DNA from: Bifidobacterium asteroides
GTDB lineage: Bacteria; Actinomycetota; Actinomycetes; Actinomycetales; Bifidobacteriaceae
Length of the DNA: 64,000 nucleotides
Assembly: GCF_019469425.1 (NCBI RefSeq)
Contig: NZ_CP048272.1
Coordinates: 1,116,001-1,180,000 of the forward strand
Reading direction: 5' to 3'
Below, piece after piece: positions 25,924 to 29,376 of this stretch (position 1 is the stretch's first letter; each line of letters opens with the position of its first letter). The notes below the pieces were generated by a model that saw only the letters and a list, made by a program, of their open reading frames with translations, was not told where the DNA came from and did no database searches. The position numbers were made by a program, and so were the translations under genes.

Positions 25924-25967
25924 ATCGATTGTGCCCCGCCGGTTCAAACCGGCGGGGCACAATCGAT
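25924..25967. terminator. Perfect 44-nt palindrome, probable bidirectional terminator
   Basis: Two perfectly complementary 21-nt arms with a 2-nt centre (CA at 25945-25946). The outer 7 bp of each arm are A/T-rich and the inner 14 bp are GC-rich. It lies between the convergent tal and hemH, 31 nt after the tal stop and 45 nt from the hemH stop. Confidence 0.8.
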
Positions 25968-26011: not shown

Positions 26012-26935
26012 CTACTCTGTCTTGGTCTCTTCGACCACCTGCTGCAGGGCGCCAATCAGGGCGGAGCTGTCGTTGGGCAAGTTCAACCTGGTCAGGGTGC
26101 CGCCGGCTGATTCAATGGCCTTGGTCAGCTCAATGTCCACGTCATAACAGATTTCCAGGTTGTCGGCGATGAAGCCGATGGAGGCGGAGACGATGGTCTT
26201 CATGCCGCTCTTGGTGATCAGATCCTTGGCCACCTCGACGAAATCAGGACCGATCCAAGGCTCTTGGGTGCGGCCTGCAGACTGCCAAGCCAGTATGTAC
26301 TGCTCCTCATTGAGGCCGGCGGCCCGAGCCACGGCATTGGATAGGCCGATGACCTCATCCTTGTAGGGGTCCCCTCCCTGGATGATGCGCAGGGGCAGGG
26401 AGTGGGCGCTGAAGATCACCTTAGCGTCTGGCCTGTCGGTCAGATGCTTCTTGGCCACCAGCTGATCGCTCCAGAAGTGGATCAGTGCCTGGTGGTTCCA
26501 CCAGGACCGCACCGGCAGATATTCCATGCTCGGATGGGCCTCGATGGCCTTGCGGGCGCGGTTGTGGTAGTCCTCGCTCGAATAGGAGGAATACTGAGGG
26601 GCCAGCGGCAGGCCAATCACCCTGGTGATGCCTTCGGCGGCAATCTGGTCGACTGCATCCTTGATGAAGGGTGCGATGTATTTCAAACCTTCGTAGACCT
26701 TGTAGGCGCCGGGATGGGCCTTGTCCAGCGCAGCCTGAAGACCGTCGCGCTGGGCTCTGGTGATCCTGGCCAGGGGCGAGGGCAGGCCGATGGCCTTGTA
26801 GCGGCCGATCAGCTGGTCCATGAGCGGCTTGGGTGGCTCCTGCCCGTGGCGGATGTTGGTGTAGTACCCCTTGATGTCTGACTCCTGGTAGGGGGTGCCG
26901 TACGCCATGAGGAGGACAGCTGTAGGTTCAGTCAT
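26012..26935 (-). CDS. hemH: Ferrochelatase, probably coproporphyrin III ferrochelatase (CpfC)
   Basis: Inserts Fe2+ into a porphyrin. The 307-aa protein resembles the monofunctional soluble enzyme of Bacillus. It has MAYGTPY (Y12, equivalent to B. subtilis Tyr13), the catalytic histidine H178 in FSAHSLP, and E261 in GFIADNLEICYD (equivalent to Glu264). Many actinobacterial ferrochelatases carry a [2Fe-2S] cluster with several cysteines; this one has a single cysteine (C263), which fits a Firmicutes origin. It ends an operon with chdC and an MFS gene (8-nt overlap with the latter), so coproporphyrin III rather than protoporphyrin IX is the likely substrate. Confidence 0.9.
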   Translation of the reverse strand: MTEPTAVLLMAYGTPYQESDIKGYYTNIRHGQEPPKPLMDQLIGRYKAIGLPSPLARITRAQRDGLQAALDKAHPGAYKVYEGLKYIAPFIKDAVDQIAAEGITRVIGLPLAPQYSSYSSEDYHNRARKAIEAHPSMEYLPVRSWWNHQALIHFWSDQLVAKKHLTDRPDAKVIFSAHSLPLRIIQGGDPYKDEVIGLSNAVARAAGLNEEQYILAWQSAGRTQEPWIGPDFVEVAKDLITKSGMKTIVSASIGFIADNLEICYDVDIELTKAIESAGGTLTRLNLPNDSSALIGALQQVVEETKTE

Positions 26936-28325
26936 CAGCGACTTCTTTCTGTGAAAATGGAATGCAGTTTGTCAGGCCGATATTGACCAGGGCTATGACG
27001 ATGACCACCAGGAACATGTTCCTGTAAGAGGCCAGACCAGCCTGTCCGCCCACCTTGCCAAGTTCAATGGCCGAGGCGAAGAGCAGGGGGGCGATGGTAG
27101 TGCCGATCTTCTTGCAAGCGGACAACCCGCCTATGGCCTGCATACGGTTCTCGAGTCCGGCCAGCCTTCCGGCGATGACCTGGAGCGGCGAGGACATCAT
27201 CGAGCCCATGCCGACCCCCATCAGGAAGGACATGAGCATGAAGAGCTGCAGGTCATGAAGGGTCAGTGTGATCACCAAGGCCATCAGGCCTATCAGCGAC
27301 GATGAGAGGACGAGCGTCGTCCGGAAGCCGAACTTGTCGACCAGGAGCCCGCCCAGCCAGGATCCGACCACGGAGCCGAGCCCAACGCCGACCATGACCA
27401 TGCCGGCTGAGCGGACCGGAAGCCCGAATACGGAGTGTACATAGGTTGGGATGTAGACGAAGAGGGAGAAGAACATGCCTCCCAGCGTTCCCAGCAGCAG
27501 GGTGATCCCATAGGAGGGCAGCTTCAGCAGGCGGATGGGCAGGAAGGGCATGGTCTCCTTGGAATCGCCCAGATTACGTTCATGCACAAGGAAGACCGCG
27601 CCGGCCGCCACTGCGATCAGGAGGCATCCGATGATCAGGGCCAGATAGGTGGTTCCGTACTGGAGGAAAGTGATCGCCACCATCAGCAGAGCCAAAGCGA
27701 TGCTGAAGGAGCCCAGGCCCAAGTAGTCGATCTTCCAGGCACGGTCAGTCTGGGAGTCGCCCATCATGAACCAGGCCAAAATAAACAAAATGGCCAGGAA
27801 GGGCAGCATCATGAAGTAGTAGGCCCGCCATCCGTGGGTGACGCCCAAGAGCCCGCCAGACAGGACCGGGCTGACCATGGCGGAAAGACCGGCGATGATG
27901 CCCACCGTGGATACCCTCCTGCCTTGGTCGTTCCTGCGGGCGCGCTGCAGAAGGACGTTCATGGACAGGACCATGATGCCGCTGTCTCCCAGCGACTGGA
28001 TGAACCGGCCCAGCAGCATGACCGTATAGTTGGGCGAGACCGCAGTCATCAAACATCCAAGGAACCAGAAGGCCAGCTCCCAGAGGAAGACCTTCCTGGT
28101 CCCGTGGGCATCGGAGAGGTTGGAGGTGATGGGGGTACCCACCACCAGGCCCAGGGTGTAAAGTCCGACCACCCAAGAGGAGCCCATGGTGGTCAGGCCG
28201 AAGGTCCGGGTGATGGACGGCAGCATGGTCGGCACTGCTCCCCCATCCAGCTGGGTGATGAAGACGATGACCATGAAGAACCATATGGGCGTGGAAAGGA
28301 TCGATCTTCTCTCCCCTGTCGGCAT
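26928..28325 (-). CDS. MFS transporter (DHA2-like), candidate porphyrin/heme transporter
   Basis: A 465-aa major-facilitator protein with about 14 predicted helices, as in the DHA2 drug:H+ antiporter subfamily. It has the loop motif 'NLSDAHGTRKVFL' (motif A-like, about residues 69-81), a long central loop near 200-210, and a short polar C terminus. It lies between chdC (4 nt upstream) and hemH (8-nt overlap), so it is almost certainly co-translated with two heme-maturation enzymes. I infer transport of a porphyrin or heme; direction and substrate cannot be read from sequence. The in-frame start 13 codons earlier overlaps chdC and lacks a binding site. Confidence 0.8.
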   Translation of the reverse strand: MPTGERRSILSTPIWFFMVIVFITQLDGGAVPTMLPSITRTFGLTTMGSSWVVGLYTLGLVVGTPITSNLSDAHGTRKVFLWELAFWFLGCLMTAVSPNYTVMLLGRFIQSLGDSGIMVLSMNVLLQRARRNDQGRRVSTVGIIAGLSAMVSPVLSGGLLGVTHGWRAYYFMMLPFLAILFILAWFMMGDSQTDRAWKIDYLGLGSFSIALALLMVAITFLQYGTTYLALIIGCLLIAVAAGAVFLVHERNLGDSKETMPFLPIRLLKLPSYGITLLLGTLGGMFFSLFVYIPTYVHSVFGLPVRSAGMVMVGVGLGSVVGSWLGGLLVDKFGFRTTLVLSSSLIGLMALVITLTLHDLQLFMLMSFLMGVGMGSMMSSPLQVIAGRLAGLENRMQAIGGLSACKKIGTTIAPLLFASAIELGKVGGQAGLASYRNMFLVVIVIALVNIGLTNCIPFSQKEVADD

Positions 28326-28329
28326 GGTG

Positions 28330-29088
28330 TTACTGTCCAATCTGGTCCGTGAACAGTCTGTCAATGCGCTCAGGATCAGCCCGAGTGCCTACCAGGAAGT
28401 AAGGGAATTCGCCGTAGATGGAGCTGGCTTCGATGTAGCGCATCTCAGTGACAATTTTCTTGAACTCGAGAGGATCGTCAGCGAACAGGGTGACACCCCA
28501 CTCGTAGTCATCCAGGCCGATGGATCCTGTCAGGATGATGGAGACCTTGCCAGCGTAGGAGCGGCCGATCTTGCCGTGGTCATGCATGTAGGCCTTGCGC
28601 TGGTTGTAGGGCAGCGTGTACCAGTTGGCGCCGGGGACGCGGGTCTTCGACATTGGGTAGAAGCAGATGTAGCGCTTGTCGGGAGTCTTGGGGTGAAGGC
28701 TCGCATTGACGTAGGACCAGCCTCGGTCTGTGGTTGGCTTGCCCGAGTAGAGGCCCACCTCAGTGACGGAAACATAGGAGATGGTCGGCTCCAGATAATC
28801 GGACAGGCGCAGCTTCTCCAGGGAGGTCTCGACCCCCTGCAGCTGGTCCAGGGTCTCCCTGAGGACCATCAGGCCCAGGTCGGCCTTTTGCCCGTTGACC
28901 TGGAACCAGTAGTGGCTTCCCTGGCCCTGGGACTGCACCGCTTCCAGCTGTGCGGCCAGGGCTTTGAACTCTTTCAGACATTCCCGGCGTTCGTCCTGCG
29001 GCACTCGACGCCACTTGGCCCAATCGATTTTCCAGAAGAGGTGGAGACAGAACCAGCCCTCCAGGCTCGGTGCAGCTTGCTCAGCCAT
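28330..29088 (-). CDS. hemQ: Coproheme decarboxylase (ChdC/HemQ), Firmicutes-type
   Basis: Converts coproheme III to heme b by two peroxide-dependent decarboxylations. The 252-aa protein has the catalytic tyrosine Y144 in FYPMSK (S. aureus Tyr145), K148 at the partner position, and the proximal heme ligand H171 in DHGKIGR, 27 residues later exactly as in the Staphylococcus and Listeria enzymes. Downstream YAGK, GSIGLDDYEWGV and YGEFPYFLVG are Firmicutes-like rather than actinobacterial. The distal glutamine found in KVxQ of those enzymes appears to be Ile184. The ATG at 29088 has an AAAGGAAG site. First gene of the operon. Confidence 0.9.
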   Translation of the reverse strand: MAEQAAPSLEGWFCLHLFWKIDWAKWRRVPQDERRECLKEFKALAAQLEAVQSQGQGSHYWFQVNGQKADLGLMVLRETLDQLQGVETSLEKLRLSDYLEPTISYVSVTEVGLYSGKPTTDRGWSYVNASLHPKTPDKRYICFYPMSKTRVPGANWYTLPYNQRKAYMHDHGKIGRSYAGKVSIILTGSIGLDDYEWGVTLFADDPLEFKKIVTEMRYIEASSIYGEFPYFLVGTRADPERIDRLFTDQIGQ

Positions 29089-29323
29089 GAGCACTTCCTT
29101 TCGCTTGCTTAGCTTGCACGACATTGTGTGATGCGCCGCTCGTTGGGCACACCATTTTTTACTCTATCCTTCAGGCGGCTGATTCGTTGGATTATCGCTG
29201 CATTGTGAATGACATATTGTGGTAATGGTCAAGGACTATGAGCCTCGCGCTATTGCTGGAGAAAACAGTTATAAAGAGAGCAGTTAAAAAGAAGCAGTCA
29301 TAGGAATAGGACACCCGGATAAG
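29089..29323. promoter_or_regulatory. Upstream region of the heme operon
   Basis: About 235 nt between the chdC start and the secG terminator, more A/T-rich than the surroundings. It must hold the heme-operon promoter on the minus strand; I cannot assign clear -35 and -10 boxes. The hexamer ATTGTG (CACAAT on the coding strand) occurs three times, at 29123-29128, 29202-29207 and 29216-29221, the last two 14 nt apart. These could be regulator half-sites. Confidence 0.4.
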
Positions 29324-29348
29324 GAAAAACCCCGGTCACTGCCGGGGT
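29324..29348 (-). terminator. Rho-independent terminator of the secG transcript
   Basis: On the minus strand ACCCCGG and CCGGGGT form a perfect 7-bp stem with a 6-nt loop, followed by TTTTTCC. It lies 29 nt after the secG stop and separates the uvrA-to-secG run from the heme operon. Confidence 0.88.
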
Positions 29349-29376
29349 CAGGTATTTCATGTATTGGTTGCTGAAA

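Follow-up and report, generated by a model that had tools for sequence, protein, structure and literature searches.

A chdC–MFS–cpfC gene module of Bifidobacterium asteroides as a candidate coproporphyrin-salvage cassette

Introduction

The system closest to the gene module described here comes from the same clade of organisms: for Bifidobacterium asteroides PRL2011, terminal heme enzymes, cydABCD and catalase were reported among the respiration genes in 2012 (PMC3447821), the same set that we find in the genome studied here. H2O2-dependent heme synthase has been linked to oxygen use in bifidobacteria in a 2022 survey, which gives the enzyme as absent from B. coryneforme, B. indicum and B. actinocoloniiforme, strains for which no oxygen consumption had been detected (PMC9004370). 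Among other actinobacteria that depend on outside help, strain GP has lost hemABCE and has kept the downstream genes, and the growth factors cited for Leucobacter ASN212 include coproporphyrins (PMC6868719). Lactococcus lactis, a heme auxotroph, uses its ferrochelatase (hemH) to complete heme from added protoporphyrin IX (PMC4696147).

Here we analyse a module of three genes in a stretch of 64,000 nucleotides of the B. asteroides chromosome (the window; NCBI RefSeq assembly GCF_019469425.1, contig NZ_CP048272.1, positions 1,116,001 to 1,180,000), in which two genes for predicted terminal heme enzymes enclose a gene for a transporter of the major facilitator superfamily (MFS):

28330..29088, minus strand: chdC (hemQ), predicted coproheme decarboxylase of the Firmicutes type, 252 residues
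26928..28325, minus strand: MFS gene, DHA2-type protein of 465 residues with about 14 transmembrane helices, putative coproporphyrin or coproheme carrier
26012..26935, minus strand: cpfC (hemH), predicted coproporphyrin ferrochelatase, 307 residues

On balance, and with modest confidence, we favour the reading that chdC–MFS–cpfC is a cassette for the salvage of coproporphyrin. In its favour we count the missing matches to upstream enzymes, the catalase and cydA of every module genome in the genus, the co-occurrence of the MFS protein with ChdC, the gene order kept in another genus and on plasmids, the single group that the MFS proteins form in a tree, and purifying selection. The initial annotation had regarded such a salvage branch as new for the genus, a claim that, given the 2012 report of the terminal enzymes, is not supported in that form; the MFS gene, its co-occurrence with ChdC and the cassette on plasmids are the parts for which our literature searches found no precedent.

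Results

Two terminal heme enzymes and a transporter in one tight module

The three genes lie in the order chdC–MFS–cpfC, with a gap of 4 nucleotides between chdC and the MFS gene and an overlap of 8 nucleotides between the MFS gene and cpfC. A tight minus-strand operon with intact catalytic residues was what the initial annotation had proposed, and coordinates, gap, overlap and every residue that it named agree with our analysis.

ChdC passed the model of the H2O2-dependent heme synthase (NF008913; 308.4 bits, cut-off 253) and reached just 72.9 bits against the HemQ_actino model (cut-off 235), and its best solved chains were 1t0t, a HemQ that we take to be that of Geobacillus, and Listeria lmo2113. 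By these comparisons the protein is of the Firmicutes type and not of the actinobacterial HemQ type. The residues Y144, K148 and H171 are present, in keeping with the catalytic Tyr and Lys and the proximal His of ChdC enzymes, and the product is predicted to be a peroxide-dependent coproheme decarboxylase. CpfC passed both TIGR00109 (214 bits, cut-off 124.6) and PF00762 (234.1 bits, cut-off 27) and stayed below the narrower NF009095 (280.2 bits, cut-off 455); it matched 1ak1 with 229 bits as against 111 for 1hrk, presumably the enzymes of B. subtilis and of human, respectively. Coproporphyrin ferrochelatases use a Tyr12-type residue together with His and Glu in the active site, and Y12, H178 and E261 are all present in CpfC, as is MAYGTP, found likewise in 1ak1. 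The protein is thus predicted to be a coproporphyrin ferrochelatase that inserts iron into coproporphyrin III.

Purifying selection acts on each of the three genes: among the 13 genomes of the genus that carry the whole module (78 pairs), the ratio of nonsynonymous to synonymous substitution (dN/dS, as ratio of means) is 0.087 for chdC, 0.100 for the MFS gene and 0.117 for cpfC. Because values near 0.1 hold for each of the three, the module is not a chance arrangement.

Separately, in four carriers from another genus (L105, L106, L107 and L110, out of nine) two more ferrochelatase paralogues stand in tandem behind cpfC. They are 42–48% identical to the CpfC of the window and retain His and Glu, while the active-site Tyr is replaced by Phe in one and by Leu in the other; they may handle a new metal or substrate.

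The genome appears unable to make heme from scratch

The genome that contains the window is a single contig of 2,233,706 bases and is 99.98% complete. HemB had no match in any of the 27 genomes of the genus, whereas 11 of 14 control genomes gave one, and HemC had no match anywhere in the genus, its matches being confined to 10 of 189 Bifidobacteriaceae genomes, all in two other genera. HemE-family proteins, which matched with 32–82 bits in 43 of the 189 genomes (14 of these in the genus of the window), had no match in the window genome. For CgoX/HemY (TIGR00562) none of the 27 genomes rose over the cut-off, all 27 showing short N-terminal matches below it. The initial annotation had described a terminal branch that lacks its upstream genes, and this description is borne out as far as the search extends: HemB, HemC and HemE gave no match, CgoX stayed below its cut-off, and a complete coproporphyrin-dependent pathway was not found, HemA, HemL, HemD and HemF not being among the proteins searched. 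Judged by its gene content, the bacterium appears unable to make heme from scratch.

Three sets of weaker matches were considered and rejected. Seven of the 13 module genomes, the window genome not among them, have matches of 40–57 bits to the URO-D family; these were not accepted as HemE because HemB and HemC had no match there. The HemN-like protein was not accepted as a coproporphyrinogen oxidase, as it passed the NCBIfam cut-off for HemW (240.1 against 205.4) and failed that for HemN (116.7 against 324.95); the HemN-like protein of B. asteroides had already been argued from motifs to be HemW (PMC9004370). A second HemN_C match in the window genome, of 22.7 bits and below the cut-off, falls inside an open reading frame for a DeoR-type regulator and was set aside.

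To our knowledge, HemC is unusual for bifidobacteria. The ten Bifidobacteriaceae genomes with this porphobilinogen deaminase include no carrier of the module.

Every module genome in the genus encodes catalase and CydA

Of the 27 genomes of the genus, 18 have catalase and 24 have CydA; neither is missing from any of the 13 that carry the complete module. The initial annotation had pointed to catalase and a bd oxidase as possible recipients of heme, and the window genome has both catalase and cydABCD. Its cyd genes stand in the order cydB-cydD-cydC-cydA, after a pyridine-nucleotide oxidoreductase-like gene. The catalase gene adjoins a gene for an NRAMP transporter of Mn2+ (mntH; L113:7807-10998).

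A proposed route from outside coproporphyrin to heme b

In the route that we propose, the MFS protein would import coproporphyrin III (or coproheme) that other microbes have released, CpfC would put ferrous iron into coproporphyrin III, ChdC would use peroxide to decarboxylate the resulting coproheme to heme b, and heme b would then supply cytochrome bd and catalase. Porphyrins with four carboxylates should not cross membranes unaided. We infer import by the MFS protein from this property, from the failure to find a source of coproporphyrin inside the cell, and from the fact that this protein is the sole transporter coupled to both enzymes; its substrate and inward direction are thus predicted, and the outside supply of porphyrin is likewise presumed. 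Release of coproporphyrin III is described for some bacteria (PMC6104308), and Sphingopyxis has been cited in this connection (PMC11139205).

The imported substrate might instead be coproheme, with the iron already in place, or zinc coproporphyrin. Leucobacter ASN212 is cited as having both coproporphyrins and zinc porphyrins as growth factors (PMC6868719, PMC12285269), in line with this variant; however, cpfC is kept beside the MFS gene both in the window and in unbroken three-gene copies elsewhere, which fits an iron-free substrate, and we regard the variant as unlikely.

The MFS proteins of the module form a group of their own

The MFS protein matched MFS_1 with 155.1 bits (cut-off 33.4), stayed below TIGR00711 (115.7 bits, cut-off 230.2) and has 14 hydrophobic segments. 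In a maximum-likelihood tree the 11 module MFS sequences (six bifidobacterial, four from Lactobacillaceae and one from Lactococcus) formed one group against nine other MFS sequences, with 100/99 support and with a long-branch warning that includes the Lactococcus sequence. Among the residues invariant in all 11, and present in a third or fewer of the nine others, are Q25, D27, E83, R394, K405 and K406; at the position of K405, eight of the nine others have Arg. Charged residues of both signs in the membrane part could take part in proton coupling and in the binding of an anionic substrate.

The module is found in a second bifidobacterial genus

ChdC was detected in 23 of the 189 family genomes, the MFS protein (E of 1e-80 or better) also in 23, and the two together in 22, namely 13 in the genus of the window and nine in another genus. 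The two sets differ just by two genomes with remnants, G017 with a broken chdC and no MFS protein and G001 with part of the MFS protein and no ChdC. These nine, which are absent from the match lists of HemC and of the HemE family, keep the order chdC–MFS–cpfC with MFS identities of 54–66%. One of them (G121) is damaged, with an internal stop in chdC, an MFS gene that is open and about 22 residues short, and a cpfC match over just 53 residues. Like the module of the window, the copy of B. aemilianum (G041) is located close to the hrcA region. For the remaining eight, no synteny with the window was seen, just matches of 23–31% to two unrelated open reading frames of the window. In a comparison of 15 of the 22 genomes, all three genes of B. 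aemilianum were closer to those of the window's genus than to those of the other members of the second genus; these gene similarities suggest that the copy may have been acquired by horizontal transfer. In another genome of this second genus, a gene for a CopA-like P-type ATPase stands upstream of the module (L104:2733-5345).

A scan of the genome_contigs collection (84,980 species) with the MFS alignment, which relied on two short peptide patterns and so missed distant relatives, returned 13 loci, all in Bifidobacterium, including B. asteroides, B. choladohabitans, B. mellis, B. apousia, B. mizhiense, B. polysaccharolyticum and B. aemilianum. Most of these species are, we assume, bee isolates.

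Copies on plasmids of lactic acid bacteria

When the module proteins were compared with 72,556 plasmids by tblastn, ChdC matched 33 plasmid records; the MFS protein matched 11 plasmids of Lactobacillaceae with 51–52% identity over most of its length; and CpfC matched 11 plasmids at 58.8–59.1%, together with 11 of Lactococcus and two of Enterococcus faecalis at 41.4%. Two of the latter 13 plasmids were examined, L. lactis pUL021C and one of E. faecalis (L147 and L148), and both have chdC–MFS–cpfC in the same order with no internal stops in the tblastn alignments. On pUL021C two ISS1 transposases flank a segment that holds the module, a gene for a multicopper oxidase and another MFS gene. Lactic acid bacteria that host such plasmids are not known to make heme, and the control genome of L. 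lactis, the sole host species checked for upstream genes, gave matches for the ChdC family and ferrochelatase and none for HemB, HemC or HemE.

These copies lead us to a wider proposal, held tentatively and with rather less than even confidence: chdC–MFS–cpfC may be a mobile cassette, with a transporter subfamily of its own, that makes bacteria unable to synthesise heme scavengers of coproporphyrin, on the chromosome in bee bifidobacteria and on plasmids associated with insertion sequences in lactic acid bacteria, and its MFS protein would then be the first dedicated bacterial importer of coproporphyrin known to us.

Observations that weigh against import and salvage

A number of observations speak against this reading of the module, the first being the fold of the transporter. 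An AlphaFold model of the MFS protein (mean predicted local distance difference test score, pLDDT, of 74) has a DHA2-type fold of about 14 helices that is nearest to EmrB, EfpA and QacA, and Foldseek ranked DHA2 pumps highest, among them EfpA and EmrB (TM scores of 0.73–0.76 for these two), so that the nearest solved folds, as modelled, belong to efflux pumps. The MFS protein could then be a safety valve that exports surplus porphyrin, coproheme or heme, the precursor entering elsewhere and the two enzymes finishing heme. MFS efflux proteins controlled by heme sensors are known, PefAB and HatT being described as such (PMC12670364).

The Lactobacillaceae plasmids point the same way. Ten of the 11 were examined (L143–L146 and L149–L154), from L. 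reuteri, L. panis, Loigolactobacillus coryniformis and seven L. plantarum. The MFS and cpfC matches span their genes and chdC is broken in all ten: in L. reuteri it is full length with one stop, in the other copies just a C-terminal piece was matched, and the remnant of L. panis is annotated as a chlorite dismutase family protein of 210 residues. With the MFS gene and cpfC retained and no intact chdC, the pathway would stop at coproheme. The annotated overlap between the MFS gene and cpfC is 4 bases in nine of the ten; in L. plantarum LS/07 the MFS gene is unannotated and was detected by tblastn alone. Most copies continue downstream with a permease of the FtsX type and a PAS protein, an ABC permease being annotated in eight of the ten and a PAS protein in nine, the record of the tenth (L152) ending first; the FtsX and PAS domains were confirmed in one copy. 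Efflux is the main rival of import on account of the fold nearest to pumps and of these plasmids that keep MFS–cpfC with a broken chdC. Nevertheless, nothing else that could act as an importer is coupled to the module, the MFS gene lies between both enzyme genes and overlaps cpfC, and a cell without porphyrin synthesis of its own would presumably need a route of entry more than a dedicated exporter; we consider efflux rather unlikely.

As a side observation, a single cpfC protein accession is common to the L. plantarum, L. coryniformis and L. panis copies.

The distribution of hemoproteins also counts against coproporphyrin salvage. In 11 of the 27 genomes of the genus (11 of the 24 with cydA), cydA occurs without the complete module, and catalase accompanies it in five of these 11, so hemoproteins can be retained when the module is incomplete or absent; the bacteria concerned must either acquire heme by another route or do without it. 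The association between module and catalase (13/13 against 5/14, Fisher p 0.0006) was computed with relatedness ignored. Moreover, the PRL2011 work, in the portions of it that we draw on, supplied protoporphyrin IX or hemin, not coproporphyrin, and protoporphyrin IX raised the share of F1F0-ATPase in that strain (PMC3447821).

Along with the 11 cydA genomes, that effect of protoporphyrin IX is in line with a further alternative, that ready heme or protoporphyrin IX is imported and the module is minor or a relic, in which case CpfC may metallate protoporphyrin IX. Remnants of the module in two genomes fit this alternative too: one (G017, L103) has broken chdC and broken cpfC beside tal and no MFS gene, and in the other (G001, L102) a fragment of the MFS gene stands with a full-length cpfC, without any chdC. 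A relic is, however, hard to square with a dN/dS near 0.1 for three genes in 13 genomes and with the retained catalytic residues, and protoporphyrin IX needs no ChdC; we hold this alternative to be very unlikely.

Surroundings of the module

The module stands among housekeeping genes (hrcA, transketolase, transaldolase, triosephosphate isomerase, phosphoglycerate kinase and whiA), and the small protein encoded upstream of chdC is presumably SecG, NCBIfam giving no match. Three further features were noted around the module:

29205..29234, minus strand: block upstream of chdC, largely conserved in an alignment of the upstream regions of the 13 module genomes
29328..29349, minus strand: terminator-like hairpin between secG and chdC, from a pattern scan
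25927..25964, no strand assigned: perfect inverted repeat in the interval between tal and cpfC, which converge

The conserved block is a possible promoter or operator, and the inverted repeat a probable bidirectional terminator. Given the hairpin between secG and chdC, the module probably forms a transcript separate from secG; the region has five terminator-like sites as against a mean of 2.1 in shuffles. A scan for a sigma-70 promoter found one site, on the opposite strand (chance mean 1.1), and it was not retained. A longer reading frame of chdC would begin at an alternative in-frame start at 29124, but in the relative G009 an insertion of 2 bases lies between the two candidate ATGs, so the start common to the relatives is 29088.

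The three module genes show no sign of recent foreign DNA by composition: their GC content is 0.59–0.61 (third position 0.78–0.82), compared with 0.60–0.64 (third position 0.78–0.81) in the genes for transketolase, transaldolase and phosphoglycerate kinase.

Discussion

If the salvage reading is true, heme cross-feeding would be possible at the level of coproporphyrin, beyond that of heme or protoporphyrin IX, and it would be explained how bee-gut bifidobacteria with no heme pathway of their own supply catalase and cytochrome bd. For food lactic acid bacteria the cassette would represent a mobile trait; it would also provide a candidate transporter for a step for which the open-licence literature that we searched names none. 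That literature yielded nothing about the MFS gene or about how it co-occurs with ChdC, no cassette on plasmids of lactic acid bacteria, and no dedicated bacterial importer of coproporphyrin.

With the coproporphyrin-dependent pathway of Firmicutes and Actinobacteria the module shares the families of CpfC and ChdC and their catalytic residues. Unlike that full pathway, it stands in a genome with no match to HemB, HemC or HemE and with CgoX below the cut-off, and a transporter gene lies between both enzyme genes. The PRL2011 account predicts three steps from coproporphyrinogen III and, in the portions of it that we draw on, mentions neither the MFS gene nor import of coproporphyrin nor plasmid copies (PMC3447821). 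Similarly, the corresponding portions of the work on Leucobacter ASN212 and GP mention no chdC–MFS–cpfC cassette, and added coproporphyrin failed to rescue GP (PMC6868719). PefAB and HatT are, akin to the MFS protein of the window, MFS proteins tied to heme or porphyrin, and they are described as regulated efflux systems (PMC12670364). Finally, whereas the work on hemH of L. lactis concerns protoporphyrin IX (PMC4696147), the cassette of the window joins a coproporphyrin-type pair of enzymes with a transporter gene.

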